The notes beneath the pieces are model-generated. The model made no database searches, was not told the origin of the DNA, and saw only the letters and a program-made list of their open reading frames with translations. The position numbers and the translations under genes were made by a program. This document shows positions 3,710-63,412 of a stretch of DNA of 64,000 bases, in pieces (the stretch's first letter is position 1; every line of letters begins with the position of its first letter). Where the stretch lies: positions 7,492,501 to 7,556,500 of the forward strand of contig JAFFSR010000227.1 in assembly GCA_017163975.1 (NCBI GenBank), in the 5' to 3' direction. The stretch comes from Anastatus disparis (Eukaryota > Arthropoda > Insecta > Hymenoptera > Eupelmidae).

Positions 3710-3867
3710 CCCTGGTAAAAAATTGACCATTTTTTGGTTATTACTGATGATGTAAGTACATTAATATAAATTCTGGAAATATTTTAAACAGAATTTCCAG
3801 ATGAGTGTCATTTTGACATGCTTAGATCAGCAATTATGACCATAAATTGGTTAATTTTCTATCAGGG
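3710..3867. mobile_element. short MITE with CCCTGGTA ends
   Basis: A 158-bp near-palindrome. The left end reads CCCTGGTAAAAAATTGACCA and the right end is its imperfect inverse, ending CTATCAGGG. The arms meet around AATTCTGGAAAT / AGAATTTCCAGA near 3770-3800. No open frame is present. The ends match those of the 362-bp MITE at 39,133-39,494, which has a clean TA duplication. Here the flanks are TT on both sides, so the duplication is degraded or absent. Non-autonomous; the mobilising transposase is not identified. Confidence 0.6.
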
Positions 3868-27143: not shown

Positions 27144-27716
27144 TTGGCAGCCAGAATTTCTATATCTCAAGATAAAATTAATAATTCATTACTGGCTCGT
27201 GAACCACAGAGCTTATATGAACATGATAACGAAATCGAACCAGTGCAGTTAGGGCCCCATGCAATTGAAGAAGCTACAGAACAAGAAGAAGAACAAGAAG
27301 GAGAAGTCGCACTAGAGCCACCTACGGAGACAGAATATGAACAAACAGGCGGGTCGTTAAAGAGACGTAGAATAGAAAAAGCAAAAAGGCCAGGACGTCC
27401 TAAAAAAATTTCCAGAGAACGCAAACCAACTTTTTCAGATAAGTCTATAATTTTGGTAAAATGTAAAAATTGTCCACTGTGGCCTGCTTTTATACAAAAA
27501 AGGGAAAAAGGAAAATATAAAGTATATCTCTTTAATAAAAATGGTTTATCGTCAAAATCACACTAACTAGAAATAGCTTACCTTCAAGCATATTCGGAAA
27601 CAGATATGAACGAAAGCTCAAAAGATATCACAGACGTGACTATCTTAAATGAATGGGAAGATGCAAAACAGGGATGCAAAAAATATCTTGAAAAGAATCC
27701 ATCAACAACGATATAA
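27144..27716 (+). pseudogene. AT-hook plus PWWP-like fragment, one internal stop
   Basis: The open frame has no ATG at its left edge; a plausible splice acceptor (TTGGCAG) lies just at the start, so it may be an exon. Reading on, it encodes an acidic Glu-rich segment, then a basic stretch with KRPGRPKK, which fits an AT-hook that binds the minor groove. A PWWP-like core follows (SIILVKCKNCPLWPAFI, with PLWP in place of PWWP, then KGKYKVYLF). A TAA at 27564-27566 interrupts the frame. Beyond it the same frame stays open to 27,716 and ends with a KKYLEKNPST stretch that resembles the C-terminal end of PWWP domains. PWWP domains read methylated histone tails. The assignment rests on pattern recognition only. 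It is likely a fragment of a chromatin gene or of a mobile-element cargo gene. Confidence 0.45.
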
Positions 27717-28354: not shown

Positions 28355-28713
28355 CGGCAATGAAACTTTTAATGAATTGGGATGAAGGATAAATTATTTC
28401 CTGGAGTGAAGAATAGCGCATCGGCGATGGACCGACTCGATGCAGTTAACACCACAAAAGCAGTAACAAAAGGTAAAGTTGTCTTTCCACAACTCGTCAA
28501 CGGGGCTACCGAATCGCATTTTAACCTAATTGCCTGGACTATTCATCTCCCATACTAATGTTCGGCAACACTTTCGTAGAAATGATGTCAAATAAAATAC
28601 TTAAATCGCTAAGACCTATATTATCATACTTCCATACTTATGGGCGGTCAACCACTTTCGTAAAGTATGTATATCACCAAAAGAAACTAAATGATGAGTT
28701 TGCAAGCCATTGA
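28286..28713 (+). pseudogene. viral-like or unknown gene fragment with two frameshifts
   Basis: Reading starts in the right arm of the hairpin (TTRDILVAIGNETFNELG), shifts frame near 28,381 and continues (GMKDKLFPGVKNSASAMDRL). It shifts again near 28,555 and runs to a TGA at 28,711 (NTFVEMMSNKILKSLRPILS, then GRSTTFVKYVYHQKK). The three pieces have coherent protein-like composition and together make about 140 codons. No motif decides the family. The style (short, tight, disrupted, next to other such pieces) suggests an endogenised RNA-virus structural gene, but this is inference. Confidence 0.4.
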
Positions 28714-29043
28714 CTCGACATGGCTAATGAAAGTAAACTCAACGTCTTTCAATTTGTTAGGCAAGTAATAATCACGCAAACCATCTAAAATTAACCTTTC
28801 ACTAAAAATAAAATGTTTGAGAGAATGAAAATATTTTGTAGCTAGGAAGTGATGATAAAACTCATCACTACGTGGCATGGATATGTACTTACATACTCCA
28901 GTATAATCAACTCCAGTTAATACTAACTGTAGAGGTACCTTAACTTGATATTTTCCTAGACTACTATATCCAAGACGTGAAAATCCTAAACTCATCACCT
29001 TAATCAAATTCTTAAGAAGAGGGACTCGGCCAAACCATCTATT
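28687..29043 (-). pseudogene. minus-strand coding fragment of unknown family
   Basis: Open for about 118 codons on the minus strand (RWFGRVPLLKNLIKVMSLGF, then VKVPLQLVLTGVDYTGVCKY). It starts without an ATG close to where the next plus-strand fragment begins, and ends where the previous plus-strand fragment ends. This abutting, alternating arrangement is the hallmark of the whole 28-32 kb patch. No family is recognised. Confidence 0.4.
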
Positions 29044-30111
29044 TCAGATACGTCACGCGAAACACATCGTCAAATTGCAGCGGTGGACACTAGTGTGAGT
29101 CGCAAAGTTCCTGAAGCAGCATTCGCTTATTATACAGCAGTTCTCAGTTACGCACGGATGCTCAAAGTTTTAAAATCATCAGGACGGAGAATTTCCGCAG
29201 AAGAAGAGGCTTTTATGGATTTAGTTTACGCGGGCGACTTCACACCACCTGAACCAATCGCATACTATTTGAAAGGATTTGGAAACTGCAAATTACAAAA
29301 TCAGAGAGACTTACGTTTTAGAGCAAGGAATCGACCTATTGTAGCGTCAGCTGATGGAAGTATTGGCTGGTTTGGTCGAGTTACACATCAAACACATTAT
29401 TTATATGCTAGTTACCCTTGCTTAGCAGTTTATGTAAAAAGGATCCAGAATGATTTTAATTATACGCAAGATAGAGATTTGGATCCAGCATGGGATTTAC
29501 CTGATGACATTAGACCATTGGAAGAAGACGCAGGAATGCCAACCGATAATTTACTCGGATATGCGAGGTCACAGGTATTATCTCCAGCTCAAATTCAATG
29601 GTTAAGAAATGCTGGTTTTAATGAACATTTTGAATTTGAAAGTGAGCATGACACAATACCATTCATCGGAGGATTAATGAACGCAGTCCAGCAGGAGATA
29701 AATTGTGCTAGAGTCAAGACGAGTGAGGTGATCTCAGATAGCGAGGGATCTATAGCAAAAACGGTAATAACACAGCTACCACAAGTACCTGAAGTGGCAA
29801 GACGAGAAGGAAGATGCCCTTTAGTAGCGAGACACGCTATGGACGTGAATGGCTCAATTGTAGTAGCATCAAAATCACTTCGCTACTTACAATTTCATAT
29901 GGTTGATAACGATGAGGACGAGCCACTAAATACATGGGCGATTTATGACTTCAACAATTATAGTTTGGTCCCACAACAGTGGAGGAATACGGCTAACAGT
30001 TTATATGATGGAACATCTAGCCTAGTTAAAGAAGTCTGTTATCGAACTGTTTCTTACGCTACTGAAACAGAAGTTCGGAAGTTGGTTTCAGTGTTAATGC
30101 CAACGGAGTGA
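28990..30111 (+). pseudogene. about 370-codon ORF fragment, viral capsid-like candidate
   Basis: The longest intact piece of the patchwork. The frame is open from 28,990 to the TGA ending at 30,111; the first Met-like codon (29,083) is a GTG inside it, so no true start is visible and the piece looks truncated at its 5' side. The protein is soluble in composition, with no membrane segment, and contains AAFAYYTAVLSYARMLKVLK, PPEPIAYYLKGFGN and a C-terminal RKLVSVLMPTE. The Pro-Pro-Glu-Pro-Ile..Tyr-Leu-Lys-Gly-Phe-Gly stretch and overall style remind me of coat proteins of small RNA viruses of arthropods or fungi. I cannot name a family and would not exclude a transposon-encoded or host protein. 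Confidence 0.45.
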
Positions 30112-30158
30112 CAAAGGAGTAATTAATAAGTTTATTTATTTATTATTTATTTATTTAT

Positions 30159-30984
30159 TTATTTTATTTTTTTCACTACATAATCTGATAATAATTTACT
30201 GACAAGTTTAAGACGACTACTCTTTCTAGTGTCGTTAGATGTTTGTGACTTAGGTTTATGATCTTCTCGATCTAAATGTTGAAATTCATCCTCTGTCAGT
30301 GTGTCGTGGAATACTTCTTCTGCTTCTTTAACAATCTATAGTTGGTCTATCTTCTCTAAAACATTTATTAAGTGCTGTGGAACACTAACTAACCTGCTAT
30401 CTTGTAATATCGTTACGTACTCTAATGAAATTTGAGACCCAAACGCTGATCTCCATTTTACTTTAATATGTAATTCTACATCCGAACTACCATTCACATC
30501 AATAATACAAAGGTTTCCCAATGTGTCAGCTTGAATACTTTTCATTTCTTGTGATTCATAATAATGAACATGTTGTTGATGTGAAGATGGATATATATAT
30601 CCGACACCTGCATAGCTGTTCTTCATGGCAGTCGACGATGGCGTCGCTAATTCATGTGATTGATCTGCATTTCCTATAAAATCTATGGGTAACAATCTAA
30701 TAAAGCAACCGGAATAATCCGAAACGTTCCATGCTGTTATACTATTTACTTGAAATTCTATACCACATCCTGTATAACTTTGTTCCTTTTGTGTATATAG
30801 ACCTGCTTGTTTTACAATTAAACTACCTAATTTTGTTAAAGTGTACGTTAATTCTGTAGATGTTATTTTAAGTTTATCACGTACTATTAATTCATTCCAT
30901 GGTTGGAGTTGGAATACTGGTGGTGAGAGTGAAGGCTTAAAAGTTTTGCCTTTAATGACGTATAAATTTATGACTTTAATTATT
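30159..30984 (-). pseudogene. minus-strand ORF fragment with one stop, capsid-like candidate
   Basis: On the minus strand the frame is open from about 30,984 to a TAG at 30336-30338. It then continues in the same frame to 30,159, so one nonsense change splits an otherwise continuous reading of about 275 codons. The main part has the beta-rich composition of a jelly-roll coat protein (PPVFQLQPWNELIVRD, CGIEFQVNSITAW, CFIRLLPIDF, NSYAGVGYIYPSSHQQHV); the tail after the stop is Lys-rich. A structural role in a virus is inferred from composition only. The flanking TTTA repeat lies at 30,130-30,165. Confidence 0.4.
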
Positions 30985-31666
30985 TAATAACGTTCCTGTG
31001 CGTGGTACAATCTATCAACTTTATAGAATAGGCTTGGCATTGTTTCAAGCTAAAGTAAAAGTTGTACAGCGGACAGTAGTTACTATATTAAGTAACGAGG
31101 ATGATTATCATCGCAATGCGATGAGTGAGGACTGGATTCAGGCTGCTAAGAGTGTAATCGCGATTCCTGATCAACTAAGCCTAATAATAAATGTAATCGG
31201 AAAAATAAAAGTCTTCGAATCTATGTATATTCCGAAGATGGCACGAGATAATTTAACAGTGCATAATAATTTAATTCCGCAAAGTGAACAGATAGTGTTC
31301 ACCAATCTCCGCCAGATTGTCGTTCGATTATCGAACCCTGGAACTAATCGATTGGCACGGCAACATTTCTACGATAATAGTCCTATTCCAGGAGCTATTT
31401 GGAATATGACAAATGACGGACCCTTGTTAATAAATTATGAAGAGATATGTCCAGCTAATTATAGCACAGTTAATTTCCAGGATGACGTTAACGATTTACG
31501 AGCTAAGATGAATTTTCTAAACAAGAAAGCTCCTAAATATTTTACCAAACTAGTGAATTTTGAACCTGACGGAACAAAATCAATGTTAACGTGCAATAAA
31601 CAATGCGGATTAAGGTGCATCGACCGTTTGGCTAGAGAAGAACTCAACGTAGATAGAACTAGATAG
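30980..31666 (+). pseudogene. ORF fragment whose 3' half recurs at 61,660
   Basis: Open for 228 codons up to a TAG at 31664-31666, with no ATG at the left edge. Segments include FTNLRQIVVRLSNPGTNRLA, WNMTNDGP, EEICPANYSTVNFQDDVNDL and a Cys-rich MLTCNKQCGLRC. Positions 31,367-31,651 (285 bp) are repeated with about four differences at 61,660-61,944, where the frame runs 48 codons further. In the present copy the reading is cut at 31,651 by the junction with the next, oppositely oriented piece. The left copy keeps the N-terminal side and the right copy the C-terminal side. Function unknown; probably viral-like. Confidence 0.5.
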
Positions 31667-32046
31667 AAGTTCAATTGTGGCGTCTTTAAACATTTCGTGT
31701 AAAGCAACTGACGCTTCCAATGGTAAATTTGGTGTTTTGTACGGCCTCCCGGTAAGCTTTTGGTAAATGCATGAGCTATCTGTATTCGCACTGCATTACA
31801 TTCAGGATCACTTTTATCATAAATCGGCACTTTTTGATATTCAATGTAATTATGTTTCACTGATCGTACACACCGAACCGATTTCACGGGCAAGTACTGT
31901 AACGTGTCTTTATTCATGGCGTACCGTTTATATTGTTCTATTTCCTTATCCTCATTGTCTTTTTTTGCTCTTTTACCACGTCCCATTTTTTTTTGTTCCT
32001 GCATATCTTGCGGCGGTTCTATTTCATCGTCACTACTCATCGTCAC
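31667..32046 (-). pseudogene. minus-strand acidic/basic ORF fragment, probable frameshift
   Basis: Starts with an ATG at 32,044-32,046 (MTMSSDDEIEPPQDMQEQKK), then a Lys-rich GRGKRAKK segment and a KSVRCVRSVKHNYIEYQKVP segment. Near 31,755 the better-looking reading moves to another frame (LTGRPYKTPNLPLEASVALH), which runs to the junction at 31,651-31,667, so a single indel probably breaks it. The frame that stays open across the junction reads the antisense of the neighbouring fragment and is meaningless there. No family is recognised. Confidence 0.35.
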
Positions 32047-32294
32047 GTAATTAAAATTTACACTAACACCAAATATTTAATAACCGTCAATCCTTTTCTA
32101 GATTTCTTTGTTAAAGTAGATTTCAGCTTGCCCAACTTGTCAACTTCGTAGTCGCGATCCAAATGACAACTGCGGTTAGTCGCTAAGGCAATATAGCTCT
32201 GTTACTACAGCAGCGCCGCCACCATTGTGAACGTTGCATGATATTCTGAATTATCAGTAGTATACATTATTTAACTGTAAAACTTAGATACATA
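32047..32294. other. short spacer, nothing recognised
   Basis: Non-coding sequence between the patchwork ORFs and the MITE. No repeat or motif was found. Confidence 0.5.
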
Positions 32295-32818
32295 CACTCG
32301 ACGGACACTGATTCGCGACCCCATTTTCGCGCCTTTAAACGTTATCCATTGAGTTTAGGATGGTTGCGCGACCATGTTTCAAAAATAAGTTTCCATCTAG
32401 ATAAATATAATTCATGCTAACTATAAAACAAGGGAACATAAATAAAGGAATGGCGGCAAAATTCAAATGGGCATTAATTCGAATATAAAAAATGACAAAT
32501 GATAAAACAATAAATAAATGTTAAAGTAAGCATATTTTTATAAAGCATTCTTTACATATATTATGTAACCATATGCGATGACAATCATAAGAAATCATAG
32601 CTTTTTCATTACTTCAGTATTAAATATTTGCTCATTTAAATTTTACCGCCATTTCTTTATTTATGTTCCCTTGTCTTATAGTTAGCATGAATTATATTTA
32701 TTTAGATGGAAACTCATTTTCGAAACATGATCGCGCAAGCTAACCTATATTTCAAAAACTCAACGGATAACGTTGCAGATATTCAAAAAGGGGGTCGCGA
32801 ATCAGTGTCCGTCGAGTG
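32295..32818. mobile_element. 524-bp MITE with CACTCGACGG ends
   Basis: The left end CACTCGACGGACACTGATTC is inverted at the right end as GAATCAGTGTCCGTCGAGTG. The arms remain alignable for roughly 200 bp, including GTTTCCATCTA.ATAAATATA and TTCATGCTAACTATAA blocks. TA flanks both sides (32293-32294 and 32819-32820). The AT-rich core carries no transposase. The plus-strand frame at its right end reads only into the neighbouring (TA)n. Confidence 0.8.
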
Positions 32819-32829
32819 TACATATGACC

Positions 32830-34769: not shown

Positions 34770-36879
34770 ATGGGTTTTGCAACAACAAATACTAGATATG
34801 ATAGATGTTGTAACCCTTACAAATTGAAAAATCATCGTAAAACTAAGTCTTTACGGAAAATGACTGCAGATCTTAAAACAGTCTTGAACCATGTTCAATT
34901 AGGAGAAAGATTATGTACTGAGTGCAGAAAAAAAGCTTGGGAAGAATTAAATAAAATACAATGTAAGCATTCATATATAAAAATTTTTTTTGGAATTTTA
35001 TTTTGTTTGAATCTTATGAATATACCTTATATGAATTTTGCATTTAATAAGTGTGTGTTGGATGTAGTGTTTTGGTTAGTTTTGCTACTGTTTTCTTAAA
35101 GAATTAATAAAAAAGAATTCATGATTATTTCTTTCTCTTCCATTCATTATGAATATTATTTTTTAGAGTACTAATATATCAAGTATATGATTCTTCTAAG
35201 AAAATTTATTAGACAGATATTACATCAAAGCTTGATACAGAATATTAACACAAATTCTAATCACTACTTCTACTAACTTTCTAGTTCTCTTAAGATTAAA
35301 GTTTTTTTAAACATTTAAATTGAACCGTAATACGATGTATGCTTCTATTAACATAACATTAAGTTTACTCTAATAACTCGTAGAATTAGTTTTTATGCAT
35401 ATTAACTTTTTCATTTATCAAATAATTCTCAATTTACACTCCAGAACACAGCCTCCAGAAGGATACGAAAAATAAAATTCTTTTTTGCTCCATTACTTTT
35501 CTAATCTAACTTTTTTTTCTTTATCATACATTAGCAATGGAAGTAGATATCGTACCTACTCAATCTTCAGAAGAATGTGTGTCTATAATTAGTGATAATT
35601 ATTTTAATAAGGATTTAAATGAAATTTTAGATGTATTGATTGCAGATAATTCCTGCTCAGCAATTGCCTTACCATCAAAAACCATCAATCATGCTGTTGA
35701 TTTATTGAATAACCTACAATTAATTTTTCATGATCCATCAAGTTCAAAAAATTTAAAATTTAAAATTCTATCTGTTTTGCCTAAAACATGGAGTTATACT
35801 GATATAACATCATATTTTGATGCTTCGGAAAACATGATCAAATGTGCTAGAAATATTATTGAAGACCAAGGGGTTCTGTCATCACCTCCTAATAAAAAAG
35901 GTTCACTTGTTATTTTTATTTATATAATTTCAATTTTTTATATTATTTAATATGTTTAAAGTTATAGTGTTTTAAAAAATATGTTAAATTTATTAAAGTT
36001 AAAATTTCAAATGCTACTTTAAAGCTAATAAAATATTTTTTGTTTAGGTAAATCTATTGCTTGTGAATTATCTTCATTAGTTACAAGTTTTTATTTAAGA
36101 GATGACGTGAGTTGGATTATGTCTGGCATGAAAGATGTCATATCTGTAAGAACGATTGATGGGATTAAAGAAAAGATTAAAAAACGACTGGTTTTATTGA
36201 ATTTAAAGGAATTGTATCAGTTCTTTAAATTAGAACATCCAGGAAAAAAAATTAGTTTTAGCAAATTTACCACGCTTCGCCCTCAAAATTGTGTATTAGC
36301 AGGAAGCAGTGGCACGCACAGTGTGTGCGTCTGTTTATACCATCAAAATGTAAAATTGATGATAATAGGTATTTTTATTTTATTATATTATATAATATCT
36401 TAATGAAAATAATCAAAGTTTTAATTGTAATTGTTGGAGCGAATCACTTGACAGAATAAATATCAAGGAAATCTTATCGCTTGAAGCGACACCTGCTATC
36501 GAACAACTCGCACCGGCGGCACGCGTGCAGTCAGTCTAAGACAGATGTTGCTAGAGCCAACACGCTTCTTACGTTTCTTACCTGATTGCCTAGAGTGTAT
36601 TTTTATAACGTAGAGTTTTATCTAGTTTGTTTATCTTATTTATTATAGATTAAATACAGCGTCAATCTAAATTACTTTACCTAACTTTTTATTTATTCAA
36701 CCCACTAATAAATAAAATAATAAAAATAATCCTACAGGTTATGGGCGAGTGGGTACCGCTTCCACGTATTTTCTTTGTGAGATTTTTCCTCGTTTAATTG
36801 TGTCTTTGTAATAGAAAAACACTCGAAGTGTAAATGTGAAAGTGAGCCATTTGAGGCCGAACAACACAATTTACTAAAG

Positions 36880-51900: not shown

Positions 51901-52738
51901 CAATGGTCAGAACAATGAATCTTGGGACTAGGAAAAGTCAAATAGAAAGTATTCAGCAAGTGAGAGGGAGTGTTGGAGCGAATCACTTGACAGAATAAAT
52001 ATCAAGGAAATCTTATCGCTTGAAGCGACACCTGCTCTCGAACAACTCGCACCGGCGGCACGCGTGCAGTCAGTCTAAGACAGATGTTGCTAGAGCTAAC
52101 ACGCTTCTTACGTTTCTTACCTGATTGCCTAGAGTGTATTTTTATAACGTAGAGTTTTATCTAGTTTGTTTATCTTATTTATTATAGATTAAATACAGCG
52201 TCAATCTAAATTACTTTACCTAACTTTTTATTTATTCAACCCACTAATAAATAAAATAATAAAAATAATCCTACAGTAATATCTAATTTTTTTTCTAGAT
52301 AGTCATTTATCTGATCTTACAAAAAATGAAGATCATAAAATAACAGCATTCACAGATTGTTTTAATCTTTTAATATGTGATTCAGCATATAAATTATGTC
52401 ATTTTAACAAATGTGAGAAATGTCCAGGAGTAGATAATTTACAACAAATTTTATTCAAAGTTTTTGAAGACAATAATATTAGTTCAAATAATCCTATTTC
52501 AACTTGTAAAAATTTATTCCAATGGCTGAGTACATCTGACAGAATGCCAAATATTAATTTTAAATATTCAACGCAAGAGGACTATAATAGAAATAAAAAA
52601 TTTTTGACAAAGAGGTATCAAAACAATAACCGTGTAAAAAATATTCAAGAGCAACATTGCCTAATTCCAACTAATGGTATTGTAACATCAAAATTATATT
52701 CAGAAGATAACGTATATACAAACACTGTTATTTTTTAA
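34770..52738 (+). CDS. spliced gene of the large TIR element, family not identified
   Basis: Proposed exons are 34770-34962, 35535-35900, 36048-36368 and 52299-52738. All joins keep phase 1 and sit at GT..AG borders, giving 439 residues. Exon 1 is Cys-bearing (RCCNPYKLKNH, then LCTECRKKAW), probably a zinc-binding head. Exon 3 carries the distinctive CVCLYHQNVKLM motif. Exon 4 has LLICDSAYKLCHFNKCEKCP, again zinc-like. I have seen similar CxCxxHQNVKLM proteins as uncharacterised repeated genes in invertebrates, which fits a transposon protein. The usual catalytic acidic residues cannot be assigned here, and the C-terminus may be truncated. Copia sits in intron 3, stretching it to about 15.9 kb. 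It could be a transposase or an accessory protein. Confidence 0.55.
36432..36736 (+). repeat. copia 5' LTR
   Basis: TG..CA-bounded, 305 bp. Differs from the 3' LTR at two positions that I can see (CTATCG versus CTCTCG, and GCCAAC versus GCTAAC), which indicates a recent insertion. It contains the promoter and polyadenylation functions expected of an LTR, but no confident TATA or R boundary could be assigned. Confidence 0.95.
36737..36753 (+). promoter_or_regulatory. copia primer-binding site
   Basis: GGTTATGGGC directly follows the 5' LTR. It is complementary to the anticodon-loop half of initiator methionine tRNA, the internal priming site also used by Drosophila copia. The match stops after about 10 bases. 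Confidence 0.7.
36754..37017 (+). other. copia leader with 35-bp poly-A run
   Basis: Untranslated leader between the primer site and the first gag ATG. Contains an uninterrupted A run at 36880-36914. No ORF. Confidence 0.6.
38639..38990. repeat. left end of EnSpm: TIR plus 48-bp tandem units
   Basis: After the TIR tip, at least six exact CAATATATTG palindromes and many one-off variants occur. From about 38,791 the motif is embedded in four tandem units of 48 bp (anchor GCCAATGTTTA at 38791, 38839, 38887 and 38935), which also explains the repetitive open frames on both strands here. Such subterminal arrays are binding sites for transposase in plant CACTA elements; the same role is inferred. 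Confidence 0.85.
39133..39494. mobile_element. 362-bp palindromic MITE (CCCTGGTA family) inside the EnSpm
   Basis: Ends CCCTGGTAGAAA and TTTCTACCAGGG, flanked by TA (39131-39132 and 39495-39496). Arms match through ACACTGTTAAAAA.TATTAAA and TTCATATTTTACATTAAATT blocks to the middle. Same terminal motif as the MITE at 3710. No coding capacity. Confidence 0.8.
39616..43125 (-). CDS. BEN-domain coiled-coil protein of the EnSpm
   Basis: Minus-strand exons 42978-43125, 40119-41341, 39794-40040 and 39616-39713 join at GT..AG sites with consistent phases (571 residues if read through). Exon 1 (MFVLVLWVDQKTKSVV...) resembles the N-terminal module found before BEN domains in insects. Exon 2 encodes a charged region and a long ER-rich coiled coil with 46-residue repeats. 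Exons 3-4 encode a BEN-like domain (PKELTRKLLKELVGIENLKG, IPSDIISAVE), a fold for DNA or chromatin contacts. Within exon 2 a one-base loss near 40,467 and a one-base gain at 40,383-40,388 offset each other, but the frame between them meets a TAA at 40446-40448, so this copy is broken unless one change is an assembly error. It may help the transposase or silence host defences; that is inference. Confidence 0.75.
40205..40730 (-). repeat. 138-bp tandem repeats in the BEN-gene coiled coil
   Basis: The anchor GAGGCCTCTCGTTCTAGA recurs at 40261, 40400, 40537 and 40675, spacings 139, 137 and 138 bp. Each unit encodes a 46-residue block (SEEREKQRLAEEERERERER). The 139 and 137 spacings mark the +1 and -1 indels. 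The leucine/serine-rich plus-strand open frames here are antisense shadows. Confidence 0.85.
41342..42977. repeat. intron of BEN gene filled with alternating inverted degenerate repeats
   Basis: Segments related to the 5' end of BEN exon 2 (41,210-41,400) recur as degenerate copies: same orientation at about 41,810-42,000 and 42,300-42,500, inverse at about 41,560-41,770, 42,110-42,230 and 42,650-42,820. Two more lie in the transposase intron: about 43,780-43,930 (same) and 44,090-44,270 (inverse). Shared blocks include a TTTATTAAAA.CTAATTAAAA.T core and an AAAGATGAAGAAA.TTT core. Confidence 0.65.
43306..47037 (+). CDS. EnSpm/CACTA-type transposase
   Basis: Exons 43306-43452, 43620-43725 and 44678-47037 join in phase at GT..AG sites to give 870 residues (868 from the second ATG at 43,312). 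Exon 3 starts with an acidic SSDDEEDEDDEDNDCENF tract. It then carries the conserved core of animal EnSpm transposases: CGTADLPAKALFLGMNQYNG followed by CQVCVQEGC, DVMHAVFEGVAKRLAELWF, and LHSLRHLPEVVRRLGPLW with FPLEDINGKIKS. The Asp of TADLPAK, the Asp of DVMHAVFEG and a Glu of the last block are candidate DDE residues. It would cut the element at its TIRs. No stop or frameshift is seen. The long leader seen before 44,678 in the same frame is intron. Confidence 0.88.
47290..47527. repeat. right end of EnSpm
   Basis: Inverse of the left end with only scattered differences over the outer 185 bp, ending in ..CGATTTTTGCGCGGG. It carries about two of the CAATATATTG-rich units. A short AT-rich 3' flank of the transposase gene precedes it. 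Confidence 0.85.
48204..48476 (+). pseudogene. copia protease, truncated
   Basis: Lies in the -1 frame relative to gag and overlaps its last 34 bases at a GAGAAAAAC stretch. That could be a frameshift site or a mutation, since most copia elements use one ORF. It has a Ser/Asn-rich linker, then FLIDFIADSGATEH, the aspartic-protease active site (DSGAT) typical of copia. Three codons later it hits TAA 48474-48476, inside the right arm of a perfect hairpin (48428-48481), so the protease body is separated from the downstream pol frame. Confidence 0.8.
48428..48481. repeat. perfect 25-bp hairpin on the protease active-site codons
   Basis: Left arm 48428-48452 and right arm 48457-48481 are exact inverse complements around a 4-base loop ACCG. 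The left arm encodes the DSGA part of the active site. The right arm creates the stop and shifts frame into pol. Confidence 0.9.
48481..51843 (+). CDS. copia integrase, reverse transcriptase and RNase H polyprotein
   Basis: Open for 1,120 codons without interruption. It begins in the protease tail with no own ATG, so it was part of a longer reading. Domains in order: GAG-pre-integrase/zinc region (HYRLGHAS near 49,093, then CQTC), integrase core with the D-D-E set (HADTMGP near 49,285, CDRGTEF near 49,487, GVAERFNRTLE near 49,590), an RPRK-type basic segment, reverse transcriptase (QLDIETAFLYGD near 50,606; YVDDILIAG near 50,870) and RNase H (FSDASLSD near 51,390, ALSTCQSEYVAMSE). All key residues are present. 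It makes cDNA and inserts it. This copy lacks a complete gag and protease upstream. Confidence 0.92.
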   Translation, partial: CNSKIYLDKLNKNVKTKIKCADKNSNFNTEGSGKIKIDIEKDRKAELKNTLYSENLSNNLLSLRKFVDNGLEIYLNNKVIEIYDPKIKENILTGEYKCPFWTIKLKINKDYNSDINEVTSFYNTRSKVYSQSENSNIENNVENKIILDNDKTDKQELNTDFLKTLSNRKTHTVDSVDNANVILNNNIVKQNNFDNKKLSEILLWHYRLGHASKSYLLELIKNNRIQLNKRELVEDSSIAKCQTCLEANSSKLSFSKTRTRATKPLQIIHADTMGPISPQSHPSGYRFILVIIDDYSRAALVYPMKTKTETPEHLESFIKSLRNLIGSEEKLSYLRCDRGTEFTGLETVTVLKKYGAELQLACPDTPQHNGVAERFNRTLESKIRVMMLDSGLPATYWDLAAKAAVYVYNRTPHKSVEMLAPLKMILKEKSLPLDQMKRFGCLAFVKIHRNTATKFSPQALKGFLVGYVDTGYVIIVPDHSNKLYESKHVRFVEDLTYKDVIKNIEKSEFNVNSLEMDCSNEQNELNVISDEPMLSPEGEPHQQPVVRKRGRPRKEATVLFFLNDDTETSVLENYDEVLSDIKYHALLAKIQGDPQSYREAVNSKESENWIQAIKNELEALKNKQVYVPTERLETYAENRKPNIISSRWVFKRKINELGEHKYKARLVTRGFQDRNTYDLRETYAPVSRIALIRAFLSIANKYRLKIMQLDIETAFLYGDLSEEIYMEIPEGIELSKDMRKKFVWKLNKSLYGLKISPKKWNDKFSEAIKELGFDSNDIDSCLFLKRSSNDFTIVILYVDDILIAGSNDKLLNETRDKLSEKFKVKDLGNPKEFLGIKITRDFNEQTIRLNQTKFISKMLHRFGFDKCTPTCTPMKQSDVSNLLRKNREENEYTEVATPNKQYREAVGSLLYLASSTRPDISYAVNVLSRHQVNPTKYDWEMVTRVFRYLSETRHYELIFRNTSNDMEAFSDASLSDCKNSLTTCGYVIRLFGNAVSWRTHKQPSVALSTCQSEYVAMSETCQEIMSMHNSIKLMINRDLFPITLYCDNMSAISCAKVNGGNRLRHMVERRENYVKECVTRKHINIEWIKSKEQLADIFTKALTTQLHDKLTYEILNMNIM
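51960..51970 (+). promoter_or_regulatory. copia polypurine tract
   Basis: GTGAGAGGGAG abuts the 3' LTR and fits the plus-strand primer site. Confidence 0.8.
51971..52275 (+). repeat. copia 3' LTR
   Basis: 305 bp, two visible differences from the 5' LTR; followed by the GTAAT target duplication. Confidence 0.95.
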
Positions 52739-54337: not shown

Positions 54338-56518
54338 ATGGAGGATTTACGTGATATCTTGATACGTAAAGAAGAATTTCGTTTAAATCAAGCAGAGATA
54401 ATCAGTGCAAATTTAAGTAATCAGAATGTTTTTGTAGTTAAAAGTACTGGTTATGGGAAAAGCCTAACCTTTCAATTAGCTGCATACAAGTGTAACGGAG
54501 TGTATTTAGTTATATCGCCACTGAATTCTTTAATTACAGAACAATTTGCTTATTTAAAAAAATTAAAAGTAAAAGTATTATTAGTTATTATTATTTTGTA
54601 TAAATAGTTTTAATTTTTCTATTTATTGTGTAGATTTCTGTGTTAAAAATTATCAATCGAGTTGGCATTAAATTTGAAAAGTGTTTGCAATCTTTGATTG
54701 ATAAGCCCGAGCAAATCAATAAATATAAATTGATTTATGTCTCGCCTGAAAAAGTATGCAATTTGGATATCGTTAAAAACTTGTTATGTAAGTTGTACAC
54801 AAAGAAAATATTACATAGAATAATCATTGACGAATGCCACGTAATGATCTTATGGGGCTTATCGTTCCGATACACATGTTTAGAAGTTATGGAAGTTATT
54901 GTACGAGAATTGGAGATATATACCCCCTGGACTTTTTATTCCGCCACCTTCAACTATATTGATATCCATTTTATTAAGGACATTTTAAATAATAGAAATA
55001 ATTTTCTCGATTATATTAGTAAGTATTTTTTACAAATAAAAGTATTGTAAACTTATATTATTTGAAACGTTTTTATACATTATTTTATTTATAACAATTT
55101 TTTTTATATTATACATTAACAAGTTGATCATATTTTAAATATTCATTTTATAATATGTTTTAAATAATCCGTGATCTATAATTTATACAATATATATTAC
55201 GCGTAGTTCAAATTTTAATAAATTAATAACTGAACAACTAGTATTCGTGAGATTTCTATACCTTTTATATTAAAACTTGATGCAATTGTTTTATTAATAT
55301 TATTTGTAATTTAAACAATATTATATTGTGCAATAGCAATATCTATAATTAATCCTTTTTCTGCAATTTTTAAAGGTATGCAACCTCGATATAATCTCAA
55401 GTATTTCATTATAAACATGGACAAATTTATTTCAATTGTCGATAAAAGACAGGGAATTATAGATTATCTAACCCAGTTAATACTTACAAATCCTTTTGAC
55501 AACAGGGAAGAAGAGCTTCAAGTCATGATAAATTCATTAGACAATTTCACTTATGATGAAAATTATAATAATAGATACAATTTTGTCCTTGCATTAATGC
55601 AAACTATTTTGAAACAAATTATTTTACATTTACAATCAGGGGGGGGGTGTAACATATACAATGCAGTAATTGAGTTTCTTATAATTTATTAGTTATCAGC
55701 ATTTTAATGACAATAACATTGTTATTTCAGTAGGATAGTTGATCAATGTTGATTGATATATATATAATACGTTGTCATTATATTTTTTATTATATTTTAT
55801 TTTTATTTAATATTGTAAATATAATTATTAAACTGTTAATATGTTTTGCATTTGTAATTGATTAGTTAGTAATATTATTATTTTGTGTATAGTTTATTAG
55901 AAGAAGTGTTATTGTTTATTAATCATTATTTTCTATTTATAGATTACTTTAAATGAGTATTATAAAATTATATTAAAATTATTTATAAATATATTGACAT
56001 ATGTTTTATTTTTATTTATGTTTAGGTTAAAGAACATCATAACTTCGTCGAAGGAACCCCAAGCAGTTATGGATATCGAGCATGTTCGGCGGCAGAGAGA
56101 ATTGTATAATTTAAATTTGTTTCTTCTTGATAATCGTCATTGTCGGCATGATATGGCCAACAATCATTTCAAGTTAAATAATGAATCCGAGCGATGTGCG
56201 AATAGTTGCGATAATTGCATATGGGGTGGTATAGGTCTTCAGGATGCAGTAACTATCGATGTTGGAAATGCCATTGATTGCATTATCCGCAATTATCTGT
56301 ATTTAAAAGATAAACTGCATTGTGACAAAATTTCTTTGCAGTTATTGTATTATATGTGCCTCGGTAAATATTGCAACAATGAAGTAGATATCTACAATAC
56401 GATCATTCGTTATCCCGGATTTGGCAATCTCCTACACTATAATGAACATGTCTTTAGTTATATTTTTGAATTCCTAATTAATGAATTGTGTATATTTAAA
56501 ACGTATATAGAAAAGTAA
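54338..56518 (+). pseudogene. RecQ-family helicase relic lacking the second helicase lobe
   Basis: Exons 54338-54568, 54634-55018 and 55376-about 55,690 join in phase. A last exon starts near 56,026 and ends at 56,518. Exon 1 has a RecQ-type FRLNQAEII head, the Walker A STGYGKS (residues 36-42) and VISPLNSLITEQ (58-69). Exon 2 has YVSPEK, the DECH box (143-146) with the RecQ-like aromatic loop MILWGLSFR, and FYSAT. The last exon matches the RecQ zinc-binding region (RHCRHDMANNHF..CANSCDNC), then an RQC-like winged-helix stretch. Motifs IV-VI of the second lobe are absent between 55,450 and 56,026, where only an unrelated-looking frame with a GGGGGGG run is found. The enzyme should unwind DNA 3' to 5', but this copy cannot. 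RecQ, not Pif1 or Rep helicase, is the best fit. Confidence 0.75.
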
Positions 56519-56522
56519 TGGA

Positions 56523-58202
56523 ATGTCAATTTTTGAACCTTGCGTGTTCGTCGTTTATTACGATCAACTTTACGACGAGGGTATCGGGCGTATGTATATC
56601 CAGTTGGACTACGAAATTTATAACCAATTACTAGCAGACAACAACATGAATAACTTGAAAATCAATAACGTTTGTAAGTATGGATTATTTTTCTTTATTT
56701 AAATTATTTGTTTAATTAATTTATTTATATTTCAGGTACTTCCTTCATTATCAAAAACAGTAGTTTGACCGGTTATATTACTGCCCTTATCAAAAAGTGT
56801 CTAAAAGTAATTTTATTAAGAATTGCTGTTATAGTAAATGTCAAGTATTATCAATTGAGAGAAATATATATAACAACAAAATTAATGAAAAAAATAAAAA
56901 CGATTTCAAATAAGGAATCATTATTATTATGTCTGCCAGAGCACGATCTAACTTTTGAAGGACGGTCCGAAGAATTTATCACTGAATTGCTTCTGGCTTG
57001 TATTTGTTACTATAACAAATTATATCCATTAGTGTATGGTTATAAAATTTTGTACAATCCCATGATTTCAGTCGAGCAAAACTTCGTATATAGTGCTAAT
57101 TGTAAACTTTTATTCAATAGATTGTATAATCTTCAATCTCACAAGGAAAATCTGCCCTTTATAATTGAGCAATGTCGTGATTTTAACAACGATAATTTCC
57201 TCGGATATTTTTACGAAATCGATTTAGATGTCGAGGAACAAGAGATATTCGATAATTCTCAATTAATTTTTGATTCCGACGCAGAAGGAGAAGAAATTAT
57301 TGTTGATAGTACCCAATTGTCTAGTGAATCCATTGATTTTTCGGATTCAGAAGCATCCGATGATGAATGGATTTGTCATGAAATGTGTTATGTTGGAGAT
57401 GCCATTGATTATCGTTTCGACAATGCAGCAATTGCGGATAAACGTAGTATTCTGGACAAATCAATTGTAGTTAAACATAAATGGCTTGATAAAATCAAAA
57501 GCATTAATGCTTGTATTCCTACCGACAGCAAGCTCAATTGTAAAGTCGAGCAAGAATTTTCTAATAAAACAGTGGAATCGGAATTATTGGTGTCACCAGT
57601 GGGTGCTATTAAATCCGAAATAAAAGTAGAGACTAGTGAAGATGGAATTGAGTATAACAAATACAATGATGAACTTTTGTGTACATATGTGAAAAAGAAA
57701 GAGATCAGTCAAAATAAAATTGAAGTTGAAAAATTAATCGTTGCTAGAATAGATTATCTGTTTCAGAATTTTCTTAAAGAAAATCCACTTTTAGTGAATC
57801 ATATTAAAGAGAAAATTGAAACTCGACTAAATCACACCAACAGATCAACTACTTTAGAACAGGAGTTTACTATTAAAGCATTTTTATCTATTGGTGGATT
57901 TAGTTCACTCTCCATGTGTTTTTCCATAAAGGACCATGTTGCAGTTCTTTTAGTAAGTACAATTAAATCAATTATCAATTTTTTAAAATTTGCAAAATAG
58001 GTAATAAATCATTTATTTTCAGAGTAAATTCTTAAACAGAGATATATCTAGGATAACCAGCCTTTTGACATCAAGAATAGCCGGCTATAATAAACAGAAA
58101 TTAAAGGTTCACCACTTGAACGATACGGAGATATCAATCATTAAATCATTTGTTTGTGACCTTTTAAAGGTTCAACGGAAAGATAGTCGGAGAAAGTCTT
58201 GA
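56523..58202 (+). CDS. unidentified 515-residue protein between RecQ and primase genes
   Basis: Exons 56523-56673, 56736-57952 and 58023-58202 join at GT..AG sites in phase and leave an uninterrupted frame from ATG to TGA. It starts 5 bases after the RecQ-like stop. The N-terminal part is compact and aromatic (MSIFEPCVFVVYYDQLYDEG). The middle has CLPEHDLTFEGRSEEF. There is a long acidic tract (SDSEASDDEWICHEMC) near 57,350. The C-terminus is helical and basic (KVHHLNDTEISIIKSFVCDL, KVQRKDSRRKS). No signal peptide is evident; one hydrophobic run near 56,810 may be an unspliced stretch. I do not recognise the family. Being intact between two decayed replication genes, it may be the element's most conserved specific protein, for example a DNA-binding or recombination factor; that is inference. 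Confidence 0.6.
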
Positions 58203-59779
58203 TGATGAAGAGAAATAATTAATAACACATTATTAAACATATGCGTAATATATAAATAAATTGTAATACGCTCAATTTTAAAATTGCATATTCTTATGTT
58301 TATATTTATTATCTCTATTAACTGTCAATTAAAACAGTGAACATATATTTGATTCTACTAAGTTCATTTTGTGGAAATTGTCCAAGTTCTGGTCATTGGA
58401 TATTTAATATAATTGTTTTGTAGATTTTAATAAAATTTAATATAGATTTTTATATAATTTAAATATCAATATTTGTTAAATTGTTACATAAGTTATGCCT
58501 TGATAAAGTTATAATATGTTCGATTTTTCATCGCTTTCAAGTTATTTTTGGTTATGAGCAATTTGTAAATGGTTATATATCAATACATATTAATACAATC
58601 AATTTGTAGATTGCATATTGTTTAATTCTAGATAATCGATTGGTAGATTGTTTATAGTTCAGTCTTAAATATCAATACTTATTAAATTGTTATTTTTGAA
58701 TTAATTATAACGTGAATAATTTGTAAAGCGTGCTCAAGTCATTTTCGCGTTTGAACTAGTAAGTCATAATATATGAATAAATTATAATATGAACGATTTG
58801 TAGATTGCATATTCTGTATTTTTAAATTTATTATTCCTTTGTAAACCGTCAATTAAATGAGTGTACGTATATTCGATGGAGCAAGTTCAATTCTTGGATA
58901 TCGTTCAAGTTTTGGTCATTGAAGATTGAAGATAATCGATTCGTAGATTTTAATAAAACTTAATATATATTAAGTTTTAATTACATTTTAAATATCAACG
59001 TCGTTAAATTGTTGCTTGAGTTATAACTTGATTAAGTTATAATATGTTTGATATTTCAAGTGCTTCAAGTCAATTTTAGTTATTAGCAATTTGTAAATGG
59101 TTATATACTAATAAATTTTAACACGATCAATTGTAGATTGTATATGTATGAATTTTATGGCCATTATGTTTTTGTAAACCGTAATTGAAACAGTGTTATT
59201 TTACTAGTTTGATCAGTCGGGTATATAATATTTATGGAAAAAACTCAACTATAAATCACATCGATAACAAGGTAATCAATTTTCACTTCTGTGTTTAATA
59301 AACCAGTCCCCGCTCCTCGTTGATTTCGGAACTTGGGCAATCGTATTATTTCAAAAGTCTGGAGAAGAGCCCCGTTTCACCTACCAATGATATTATATCT
59401 GTAAAAATCGTTAAATGAATGGAATTCGAAAGCCCACACTCTCGGTTATTTTCTAACAGGTTCGATTTCTAAGTTGTGCAAATGCCAAGTAAAAAGTTAC
59501 TTTCCTACGGGGTATTAGAACTTAAATACAAAGTTTCGGATCAATGAATATTAAGATCGATTTTTTAAACTATATGTAATATAATCAATTTGTATATTTT
59601 TATACCTAATCTTCATAATTCAAAAGTTATATAATTGTTGTTTATGCCTAAATTATGATAAAATTGATTTTCTATTTGATCTTTTCTAAATTGACAATTC
59701 AACATATTAACGCTATGTTATTTAAAATCAAGTTTTTCACGGTCGATTTCGTGTTTGCGATTGTAACGCCATCTGGATT
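58203..59779. repeat. AT-rich spacer with a 527-bp degenerate tandem duplication
   Basis: Blocks recur at an offset of about 527 bp: AAGTT.TGGTCATTG (58,379 and 58,906), AGCAATTTGTAAATGGTTATA (58,557 and 59,084), and AAC.GTCAATTAAA (58,320 and 58,847), with a partial third unit from about 59,130. No coding exon. About 59,280-59,560 is more complex single-copy sequence of unknown nature. Confidence 0.6.
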
Positions 59780-61226
59780 ATGTTTGTAATGTTCAGAGCA
59801 GATAGCATACAAATCAGAAAGAAGATGGCTTCCAATAAGAACGTTAGTGTAACCGAAACCGCCAAAATTTTGGCAAACAAATCGTTCAATAGCCTTAAAT
59901 TTAACAAATTAAAAAGTGCTATCGATTTTTATTATTTAAATTTAAAAAGTAATCGTGAATTTTTGATAATCAGCAATGAAATCGACGAAAAAGGAAACCG
60001 ATACTTCATCATCAAAGAGAGAATGTGACTCATAAAAAATCATCATAAACTTGCTCAGCCCAATCATTTTTATGAGGTGAGTTATTAATTATCTTACGAA
60101 AAATATATAATTTAATAATTCATTATAATTACAGGTTATCTTTGATAGTGCTACATTATATTTTGATCTAGAGTTTAATTTGCAATTGTGTTCTCGTGGC
60201 TCAGGTGATATTTTTCTTATCTCATTCTTTGAACAAATCGAAGTATTATTAAATAATATACTCGATGTGGACGCTGTTAGAATTCATTATTTGACCTTGG
60301 ATGCATCCAATGATACAAAATATAGTAAACATATAATATTTCATGTTTGTCGTTATTGATGATCTCCGATATAAATTGTTAACTGATATCAAAACACCGT
60401 TTCACAAGAAATTTTATAAATTCCTAGAATCATTTTTCGGTTATATTTCTGCAATTACCAATGAGGAAGAAGAAGTACAAACAGATTTTGACATGTTGAA
60501 GGAGCTAGTTACGACAAAATTATTATTAGGTAATTTATTTTAAAATCAGTTATGTTAATTATTCTTTTTTAAATTAAAATTATTTTTACAGATGATACTA
60601 CCAAAAAATATTTCCACATTATTGATTTCAAGGTATATAATGTTAACCAAAACTTTAGAATGTTTGGGAGTTGTAAATTTGGTAGTAATCGTATATTGTT
60701 ATTCGATCCACTGCATTCTTCTCCAATATACGAAGATTCAAGTAATGAAGAAATATTATTAAATTCATTAGTAACTAATGTTGATGACGGAAATATTATT
60801 CTTGGAATGCAATTGATAAAAAAGATTTATAAAAAATTTTTCAAAATTGATGGTCATGAACAAAGTGTTAAGACGGAGATTTCATCTACTTTCAAAGTAT
60901 ATGCAATCGACAATAACATGGTTATGAACTATTGTACGGTGAATAACCTCATTAATAACAAAAAAGACAATTTTTTATTTGGTATTCAAGAAATATTTAA
61001 TTACTTTAGTAAATATTCACAAAATTCGAATATTACCATGATTGACAAGAAAAACAATATTTTTATTGTTGGTACTAATTGCCATTATTGTATAATTGAA
61101 CAAAAAATGAATCGTAGTAACTGCATAAGATTTATAATTCGTGGTGATTGCAAGCAAATTGAATTGAGATGTTTTGGTTGTCGTAATGCAACTTATTTGG
61201 TAAATGCTTATGCGAATACTAATTAG
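59780..61226 (+). pseudogene. PrimPol-type (archaeo-eukaryotic) primase relic
   Basis: Exons 59780-60076, 60135-60529 and 60592-61226 meet at GT..AG sites. Exon 2 opens with HFYEV|IFDS and the catalytic LYFDLEFN (D-x-E, motif I of AEP primases). It then has LTLDASNDTKYSKHIIFHV, which corresponds to the S-x-H motif II block of eukaryotic PrimPol. Exon 3 has DFKVYNVNQNFRMFGSCKFG, the motif III region, and a C-terminal Cys cluster (NCHYC, then GDCKQIELRCFGC) in the place of the UL52-type zinc finger. An in-frame TGA (60026-60028) and one extra base near 60,345 break it. The enzyme primes and extends DNA on damaged or single-stranded templates. The order and spacing of blocks are those of PrimPol; the divergence from animal PrimPol looks large, so a mobile-element or viral form is more likely than a host paralogue. 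Confidence 0.78.
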
Positions 61227-61659
61227 TAATCAATTTCTAAATACGCTATTGGATATATACAATTAATGAATAGAAAATAATCTAAGAAACTGTCTAATTT
61301 AAAAACGAAATTATAACCAAGAGAAGTAACGTTTGAATCGATGTATCAATTAATATTGTTTCTTTGATAAGTAATAAATTGTGTATTTAATAGTGTTTGG
61401 TGTTGATCACTATTCACAGCTATATTCTGTGTTTTAGTTTAATTTGTATCAATTAATATTGTTTCTTTGATAAGTAATAAATTGTGTATTTAATAGTGTT
61501 TGGTGTTGATCACTATTCACAGCTATATTCTGTGTTTTAGTTTAATTTGTCTAAACGAATGTACGTTAAAGTTAGTTTAAAATTTTATATTACATTGGTA
61601 TGTGTAATATCTCGTATTAGTTATTCCAAAAGTTTCGGATATATTAGTTTATGTAATCA
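61227..61659. other. spacer containing a 103-bp tandem duplication
   Basis: Non-coding; see the duplicated unit inside it. Confidence 0.6.
61343..61549. repeat. two perfect 103-bp tandem copies
   Basis: The unit starts TATCAATTAATATTG and ends TTTAGTTTAATTTG (61344-61446 and 61447-61549). I see no difference between copies, so the duplication is very recent, or an assembly artefact. Confidence 0.9.
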
Positions 61660-62088
61660 TTCTACGATAATAGTCCTATTCCAGGAGCTATTTGGAATAT
61701 GACAAATGACGGACCCGTGTTAATAAATTATGAAGAGATATGTCCAGCTAATTATAGCACAGTTAATTTCCAGGATGACGTTAACGATTTACGAGCTAAG
61801 ATGAATTTTCTAAACAAGAAAGCTCCTAAATATTTTACAAAACCAGTGAATTTTGAACCTGACGGAACAAAATCAATGTTAACGTGCAATAAACAATGCG
61901 GATTAAGGTGCATCGATCGTTTGGCTAGAGAAGAACTCAACGTATATTATGGTCGTGCAAAGTTAGAAGGTGAGATTGATGAATATTTTAACTTAGTTAA
62001 TCTTACTGCACAGGAACAAATTGAGTGCCAAAGAACAAGCCGGGCGTCCGGCAAAAAAGCTGAAGAAGAAATAGTATACTCATACTAA
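61660..62088 (+). pseudogene. second copy of the 31.4-kb ORF fragment, extending further 3'
   Basis: Positions 61660-61944 repeat 31367-31651 with about four base differences. Beyond the shared part the frame continues 48 codons (YYGRAKLEGEIDEYFNLVNL, ERTSRASGKK-like tail) to a TAA at 62086-62088, presumably the true C-terminus. It has no start: the left border falls at TTCTACG in mid-frame. Two fragments of the same sequence on either side of the RecQ-primase block and the transposon nest suggest either duplication or repeated capture. Family unknown. Confidence 0.55.
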
Positions 62089-62319: not shown

Positions 62320-63412
62320 TGCAGCAGGACTGCCGTGACAAGCCACGACTCATCCTCATCGACTACATCACGAACGCCGACAAATAAAATAGAGACTAAT
62401 GACAACTTCATCCCCGTGAAGTCCAAAAAAAAGGTCCAGTCAAGCCAGCAACTCCAGCAAAGATGACAACTCTGTGAGAAGCACGAAGAGAAAGAAAGCT
62501 TCGATCAACGAGGTAAGAATTAGCAACTCATTTGAGATTCTAGCCTCACATGATAAAGAAACATCCCTTAATGATTCCCCAATTATTACTCCCCTAACTA
62601 AAAAGAAAGAAAATATTAGCCCGATAAATGTTCGCGTGGATGAGTTAAATTTTCCCAATGCCATCCTTTAAAAGGTAATGAATGATTTGGAATATAAAGC
62701 TATTGTTTATAAACAAAAACATAGCTTTATGTCAATTCGAGTTTCTACTCTAAACGACTATAGGAAACTTCTCTTCGAGTTAGACAGGATAGGGTTCGAA
62801 TACTATTTATTTAAACCAGCAGAATAAGTCCCACCTATAAAACTAGTTATTAGAGGACTGCCTACTACTTTTCCCACTAGAAATATTAAACAAGAGTTAA
62901 CTGAACTAGGCTACAATGTCCTAGATGTAGCACAAATGAAAAGAGGCAATGGAACAAACACTGTCTCTCTTCCCCTCTCCTTAGCAATATTGGAAAATAA
63001 TGATTAAACTAAAGAAATCAAAGATCCTAAAACCATTGGATTTATCAAGATCAAACTTGAAAGCTATGTCAAACCGAAAACACTTGTTCAGTGCTTTAAC
63101 TGCCAAGGTTTCAATCATGTTTCCAGATTTTGTTATGTGATCCCCAAATGCGTAAAATGTGGTGAAACACATAAATCCAATGATTGTGAAAAACCTAAAG
63201 ACAGGAAATTCATAAAATGCGCAAACTGCGTTAAAAATCACAGGGCTGACTACCGTGGTTGCAAAAATTACAAAATACACTCCCAACTAAAACAAGCCTC
63301 TAACAAAACCCAAAAACAAAAACAAAAACGAGTACAGACAACAACTAACATTGAAAACTCAAATCAATTTCCCTCGCTACGATCCACCCAACCCACTAAA
63401 ATTCCCTTGTGA
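62320..63412 (+). pseudogene. LINE (Jockey-like) ORF1 relic with PRE_C2HC and zinc knuckles
   Basis: One frame runs from about 62,460 to TGA 63,412 with three in-frame stops (TAA at 62,669, 62,825 and 63,005). Recognisable parts are a Ser/Lys-rich N-terminus, a PRE_C2HC-type region (IKLVIRGLPTTFPTRNIKQE, then ELGYNVLDVAQMKRG), then three zinc knuckles (CFNCQGFNHVSRFC, CVKCGETHKSNDC, CANCVKNHRADYRGC). This is the ORF1 of insect non-LTR retrotransposons such as Jockey or related clades, an RNA-binding chaperone. No ORF2 (endonuclease/RT) follows, so the element is 3'-deleted, or only ORF1 was copied. Confidence 0.82.

Follow-up and report, generated by a model that had tools for sequence, protein, structure and literature searches.

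The 64,000-bp stretch of the Anastatus disparis genome analysed here (hereafter the window; C225:7492501-7556500 of a 939-Mb assembly, C-numbers being contig labels) contains a block with a RecQ helicase gene and a PrimPol-type primase gene. This block, at 31652-61659, is a decayed and truncated copy, a broken piece of a large selfish element that is present in many copies. We judge it about as probable as not (roughly 0.5) that the block is the integrated remnant of a multi-gene selfish replicon. The gene set could not be matched to that of any published element, and the element may be a new kind of genome parasite; a full-text literature search, which had mostly open-access coverage and does not prove absence, found no eukaryotic element in which RecQ and PrimPol occur together.

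RecQ and PrimPol genes are linked at many places in the genome

The genome searches score best candidates only, and all counts of places are therefore lower bounds. PrimPol exon 3 was found at at least 8 places, the window included, when the window sequence served as the query and at at least 10 places with the sequence from C359, while the query for the RecQ zinc exon gave at least 11 places. Seven of the 10 listed PrimPol places are preceded, on the same strand and at a distance of 1.9-4.5 kb, by a RecQ zinc exon; chance would give about 0.001 such places. The host PrimPol is represented by the single PF03121 match, on C9, separate from the element loci. Four of the five PF16124 matches (C135, C218) were taken as host RecQ genes, and the fifth (C4) is an element copy. 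Thus the two genes of the block are not single-copy host genes that meet at one locus only. The original prediction, made from the sequence of the window alone, had suggested a decayed self-replicating element and a search for multi-copy blocks in the same genome; such blocks were found, and their linkage, with the host genes at other loci, fits that suggestion.

Several copies retain the sequence features of working enzymes. The DxE, SxH and D motifs of PrimPol are kept, together with zinc-binding Cys residues, in the C242, C225 and C359 copies, whereas the window copy is broken and the pattern match in C317 is the variant NKH only. RecQ motifs I, II, V and VI and the zinc-binding exon are present in C242 (PF00271, E 4.9e-21), C225, C339 and C254, and at least one RecQ motif is absent as an exact pattern in C359, C242b, C4a, C4b and the window. 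Beside the RecQ copy on C4, an open frame of more than 2,000 codons was noted on the - strand (C4:6738949-6744999).

The window block carries one RecQ gene and one PrimPol gene

All six motif strings that had been quoted for the block were located on the + strand, three of them in RecQ (STGYGKS at 54443-54463, DECH at 54829-54840 and CDNC at 56207-56218) and three in PrimPol (LYFDLEFN at 60156-60179, SKHIIF at 60324-60341 and NFRMFGSCKFG at 60651-60683); DECH occurs once more in the window, at 3800. RecQ exon 1 (54338-54568, +), which holds the Walker A motif STGYGKS, matches the DEAD domain PF00270 (Pfam, E 2.3e-10), and as a query it hit at least 15 other genome places at E<=0.001, host helicases among them. 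Exon 2 (54634-55018, +), delimited by splice sites and containing the DECH box, and the zinc-binding/helical exon (56026-56673, +) match PF00270 (E 3.2e-4) and RecQ_Zn_bind PF16124 (E 2.3e-4), respectively, both under the curated cut-offs and in the correct order. Between them lies a remnant of exon 3 (55376-55690, +), for which tblastn aligned residues 8-87 of R3 only and the search for the Helicase_C tail was negative. GT/AG sites were consistent at the splice junctions examined, except that the end of RecQ exon 3 could not be placed.

The original prediction counted three genes, the middle one an intact unknown of 515 residues (56736-58202). This unknown is preceded by a GT/AG intron (56674-56735) that follows the zinc exon, another intron precedes its last part at 58023-58202, and it has no conserved ATG. 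Its homologue stands directly after the RecQ zinc exon in C225, C359, C339 and C242/C254, the C359 exon being 23% identical to that of the window (tblastn, E 3.9e-6). Because of the intron link, the lack of a conserved ATG and the position of the homologues, we interpret the unknown as a C-terminal extension of RecQ, which reduces the three genes to two. Most of it would form one exon (56736-57952, +) with GT/AG introns on both sides, followed by a probable last exon with the stop codon (58023-58202, +; acceptor at 58022, open frame). A single-sequence fold of the extension was uninformative (mean predicted local distance difference test score, pLDDT, 32).

The PrimPol gene comprises exon 1 (59825-60076, +; tblastn 43% to P0 across the stop described below, E 9.8e-10, with a splice donor), exon 2 (60135-60529, +; motif I DLE and motif II SKH, tblastn E 1.6e-12 in two frames) and exon 3 (60592-61226, +; motif III D, NFRM and Cys pairs), the last being 30-38% identical to its matches in the same genome. 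Although a Pfam scan gave no relevant match for exon 3 or the start of exon 1, profile searches against PDB led to human PrimPol, with E 1.6e-9 for a five-member profile of exon 2 that spans the DLE and SxH motifs and E 0.008 for a four-member profile of exon 3 that spans the motif III region. In a protein collection, no homologue was found for the exon 3 profile (E<=0.01) or for one RecQ ORF (open reading frame; E<=1e-5). RecQ is widespread and still went unmatched, so this search is insensitive here.

The genes of the window copy are broken. Helicase motifs IV-VI were undetectable in the block (best E 0.21) in a search that was positive in five of six other loci. The zinc exon is frameshifted, with its two tblastn pieces in different frames; PrimPol exon 2 is frameshifted after SKHIIF, and PrimPol exon 1 has a premature TGA at 60026-60028.

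The element encodes further genes of its own

Combining the C242, C225, C254 and C339 copies gave the composite map array - E(+) - P(-) - RecQ(-) - BC(-) - A(+) - BC'(+) - array, in which P is the PrimPol gene. The block measures about 33 kb, with about 20 kb from the array to A (C225) and about 13.6 kb from A to the array (C254). A is a PrimPol paralogue by profile comparison. Its hhalign scores against P of 56.7 and 50.7 exceed the maxima of 18.3 and 26.3 from 100 column-shuffled controls each, and 13 unrelated profile pairs score 9-21. Where P has DxE, SxH and D, the sequence of A reads FYEIV or FYNIV, RKR and NPFF, the first site being readable in two of three copies. Since the active-site motifs are replaced at all three sites, A has probably lost catalysis.

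BC' resembles BC, with hhalign probabilities of 90 for the B exon and 92 for the C1 exon and a tail that is 29% identical (E ~1e-6), and E resembles this family in B with a probability of 66; these B and C1 probabilities stand without shuffled controls. E, BC and BC' are read as up to three copies of one family of no recognised fold. A PWWP fold for the BC tail was considered and dropped, as Pfam gave nothing for the BC tails and the best hit of a PDB profile search had an E of 0.47. The RecQ extension, BC and E have no Pfam match.

Pfam scans of the element ORFs along the near-complete composite recognised no capsid, terminase, protease or polymerase, although short exons could escape, and neither a Helitron Rep-Hel protein nor a reverse transcriptase; the RVT_2 domain of the window belongs to a nested Copia element. 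The added recombinase that the original prediction had proposed to look for was likewise sought and not recognised in these scans. One 5_3_exonuc_N hit in an acidic ORF (E 9e-4; 19 bits, cut-off 34) was judged to be due to chance.

Tandem arrays accompany the element

A 343-bp piece beside the left end of the C242 copy has at least 36 matches in the genome. Of the array matches listed, all 36 are no more than about 100 kb away from element sequence. The motif occurs 14 times in C254 (2323972-2338716), for the most part at a spacing of about 1.12 kb, eight times at C242:11807759-11816914, six times in a palindromic C242 copy, four times to the left of the C225 copy, three times in C240 and once at C225:8.07M. 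It is found at the left end (C242, C225) and at the right end (C254, C242, C240) of the element, in a single orientation relative to the genes. A tandem array of a related motif (period ~550) lies in C339 between a BC tail and P, an order that is expected from joining both ends of the C242/C254 map. The palindromic copy, C242b, has arms of 3.6 kb at 99.8% when read directly and of about 11 kb when mirrored places are counted. This copy (C242:11767184-11797127) apparently sits within the right arm of another element copy.

The window copy is probably an insertion flanked by a 285-bp duplication

According to the original prediction, the borders of the block were not visible; a direct repeat of 285 bp bounds the insert on both sides. 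Its left (31367-31651) and right (61660-61944) copies agree at 281 of 285 bases (98.6%), without gaps and with four differences, and a DNA search found no third match in the genome. An open frame, F, runs upstream from the left repeat and downstream from the right repeat, and a DNA search with its right-hand part only found no copy of that part beyond the two repeats. This is explained most simply if the element inserted into F and duplicated a target of 285 bp. We also considered F (28990-31663 and 61657-62085) as a gene of the element and rejected this, as it is absent from the other element loci compared. F has no IMG/VR match, and its predicted fold was uninformative (mean pLDDT 35).

At its left edge the insert cuts gene BC close to the end of the first exon, of which 31652-32040 (-, family B) remains (tblastn 31622-32046 against the B exon of C4, E 1.8e-31). 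A later insertion of 21 kb (32978-54102) separates gene B from RecQ and leaves about 8.9 kb for the rest of the insert. It is a nest of a terminal inverted repeat (TIR) transposon, within it a Copia element and within that a tnp2-type transposon, as seen from the TIRs (1,077 bp, 97.5%), the Copia long terminal repeats (36432-36737 and 51971-52276; 306 bp, 99.3%) and the inner inverted repeats (312 bp, 92.6%). The Copia ORF matches RVT_2 (E 3.6e-63) and the inner ORF PF02992 (E 6.9e-7). With the nest removed, about 1.2 kb separates B from RecQ and the two are on opposite strands, the arrangement also seen in the C4 copy. The TIR transposon was rejected as a carrier of RecQ, which lies 235 bp outside the TIR. 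At the DNA level, the window matches the other element loci compared in the RecQ stretch and in a short repeat near C359 and nowhere else.

Old lineages are under purifying selection and the window insertion is recent

Among 45 exon pairs between lineages, 24 gave finite ratios of nonsynonymous to synonymous divergence (dN/dS) of 0.03-0.27, and dS was saturated in the other 21; the B and C1 exons had ratios of 0.03-0.08. These low values indicate that old lineages were kept under selection for protein function, as expected of self-replicating elements. The C242, C254 and C240 copies are 98.8-99.6% identical over long matched DNA, and besides several old lineages at least one young lineage is present in the genome.

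By the 1.4% difference between the copies of the duplication, the window insertion is recent. Its closest relatives are at most 38% identical in PrimPol and at most 72% in RecQ exon 1, the latter on C4, where PrimPol was not found. A close donor is absent from the assembly, which favours a source outside the chromosomes or a donor that has been lost.

A proposed nuclear replicon and the alternatives

These data are best explained by a replicon of the nucleus, either a circle or a molecule with terminal repeats, that would prime and unwind its own DNA and rely on host repair for its integration. RecQ and PrimPol would act together in replication: RecQ would unwind the duplex at the arrays, which may be the replication start site, and P would prime and perhaps extend, with A as a non-catalytic partner. 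Host polymerases would complete synthesis, and BC would bind the arrays or chromatin. The DNA of the element would be maintained as a circle or a terminally repeated linear molecule and would enter chromosomes by way of breakage and of end-joining by the host; truncated inserts would result, as would the long target duplication seen in the window. Latent episomes of gammaherpesviruses carry a unique region beside variable tandem repeats. The element resembles them in its one-orientation arrays beside a unique region and in the nuclear persistence proposed here, a resemblance only, and differs in having no herpesvirus gene beyond a distant PrimPol/UL52-like kinship. The full form of this proposal is a capsid-less animal nuclear replicon of about 35-50 kb with its arrays, equipped with its own PrimPol, a non-catalytic PrimPol partner, RecQ and array-type origins, maintained like a latent herpesvirus episome and entering chromosomes accidentally through host repair; we put it forward tentatively, as less likely than not.

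A number of observations weigh against a replicon of this kind. Neither a circular nor an extrachromosomal molecule is seen in the assembly sequence, the full map was pieced together from several copies and no single intact one spans it, the ends of full copies could not be resolved among repeats, and the target duplication is seen in one copy only. Among the matches listed, the PrimPol places on C317, C259:3.307M and C389 have no RecQ zinc exon upstream, although a piece of the RecQ extension is present on C317, and the RecQ places on C371, C254, C240:2.9M and C4:6.73M have no nearby PrimPol match. The arrays have no fixed place, as one stands between A and BC' in C242b, and E2 and C1 are only weakly related, with an hhalign probability of 9%. 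With no polymerase recognised, a form that replicates itself would need those of the host. C359 and C317, however, share a nearby ORF that by eye resembles a Polinton-type DNA polymerase (L040 504-2198 in C359 and L043 ~5200-6600 in C317, - strand), 44-50% alike over most of its length. It takes different relative positions in the two copies, has no Pfam match at 0.01 and is absent from the other copies compared; it may belong to a neighbouring element or be a lost gene. Transposase, integrase and tyrosine recombinase domains were not found in the Pfam scans of element ORFs, which could miss divergent ones, and one of BC, E and the RecQ extension, being without a Pfam match, could be a transposase.

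Much of the same evidence would suit an origin of the copies in an undescribed arthropod virus with nuclear double-stranded DNA and spliced genes, pieces of which became endogenised; we judge this possible but doubtful. RecQ, PrimPol and BC would then be replication genes, the arrays terminal or dispersed repeats, and the virion genes too diverged or on parts outside those read. Such a virus would account for the purifying selection between lineages with dS of about 0.6 to saturated within one genome, for a window insert that has no close donor in the assembly though its flanking duplication is 98.6% alike, for variable tandem arrays at both ends and a palindromic copy, and for the polymerase-like ORF near two copies. 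The near-complete composite, however, is without a Pfam capsid, terminase, protease or polymerase, IMG/VR held no relative of the one PrimPol exon used as the query, and RecQ and PrimPol contain spliceosomal introns. The original prediction had named the relic of an integrated DNA virus as its other option; that option keeps the standing just given: the element ORFs gave no recognisable virion gene, though BC, E and the RecQ extension have no known fold. A giant DNA transposon, in which BC, E or the RecQ extension would act as a recombinase that escaped recognition and RecQ and PrimPol would be accessory in the manner of KolobokH, is unlikely. RecQ genes are published in Kolobok and Academ transposons, in sources seen here in excerpt (PMC9587614, PMC3627910), and BC occurs as two or three paralogues per element under the strong constraint noted for B and C1; the scans nevertheless revealed no transposase, integrase or tyrosine recombinase domain, and the sole target duplication seen is 285 bp long. 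A long duplication around a truncated insert fits poorly with a cut-and-paste transposase, though a single case carries little weight. We consider it very improbable that a host RecQ-PrimPol gene cluster was spread by segmental duplication. The genes are spliced, and C242, C254 and C240, whose ends could not be resolved, could be segmental duplicates; the host RecQ and PrimPol genes, on the other hand, lie elsewhere and are different, dS is saturated among many copies, the arrays are specific to the element, and the window copy sits between the halves of an ORF with a duplicated stretch.

Comparison with known elements

The element shares catalytic motifs and zinc exons with cellular PrimPol and with RECQ1/BLM, and differs from them in that its genes are multi-copy, linked and very diverged and its RecQ has a long extension. 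Eukaryotic mobile DNA with a helicase gene has been described: in excerpts of the respective sources, KolobokH of fungi carries RecQ and Kolobok-1_CCri has RecQ on the opposite strand (PMC9587614), and Academ transposons carry RecQ (PMC3627910). The available text of PMC9587614 does not use the term primase. While the element here also has a helicase gene, those elements have a transposase, in KolobokH of the DDD/E type, and here none was recognised and PrimPol occurs with a degenerate paralogue. Some Polintons (Mavericks) and Polinton-like viruses, which are likewise large and multi-gene, encode AEP (archaeo-eukaryotic primase) or primpol genes, according to an excerpt of PMC4642659. In contrast to them, the element has no recognised family B DNA polymerase (PolB), integrase, capsid or packaging ATPase, its helicase is RecQ and its genes are spliced. 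Teratorn, a giant animal element with primase and helicase genes as described in part of PMC6431247, differs in its herpesvirus structural genes and piggyBac-type transposase, of which none was seen here. A passage of the same review of giant transposons holds that a combination of polymerase and primase could produce very large elements after gain of an integrase (PMC6431247). A different pair, of D5 primase-like and DEDX-helicase-like genes, is reported for wasp ichnovirus loci in an excerpt of PMC7379367, and a bacterial mobile element with a primase-polymerase is listed (PMC9751324).

If the replicon reading is true, animals harbour self-replicating DNA of a class whose defining feature is its RecQ-PrimPol module and not a transposase, a reverse transcriptase or a capsid. 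One could then test whether PrimPol can initiate the replication of such an autonomous element, for what reason a PrimPol without catalytic activity is retained alongside a live one, and whether selfish replicons include kin of the cellular PrimPol.

Other features of the window

Around the insert, at 28690-31663 and 61657-62085, ORFs of 373, 215 and 228 aa lie on both strands in DNA with a GC content of up to 0.39, against about 0.27 in the surroundings. By eye they resemble pieces of endogenous virus; they have no Pfam match, and those tested had none in PDB or IMG/VR. An ORF at 27138-27563 has an AT-hook-like stretch and a sub-threshold PWWP start (E 0.0059) and may be the remnant of a BC tail or of another gene. 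The ORF at 63008-63409, without a Pfam match at 0.01, is Gag-like and by eye of the non-LTR type, with several zinc-knuckle-like Cys/His stretches. A self-inverted repeat of 528 bp (32293-32820; 75% over its length), located between gene B and the TIR element, resembles a miniature inverted-repeat transposable element, and the outer TIR element of the nest sits in a TA repeat. Two diverged tandem units, about 521 bp apart and 79% alike, occupy 58246-59145 between RecQ and PrimPol, and an exact tandem duplication of about 103 bp lies directly 3' of PrimPol (61342-61550).

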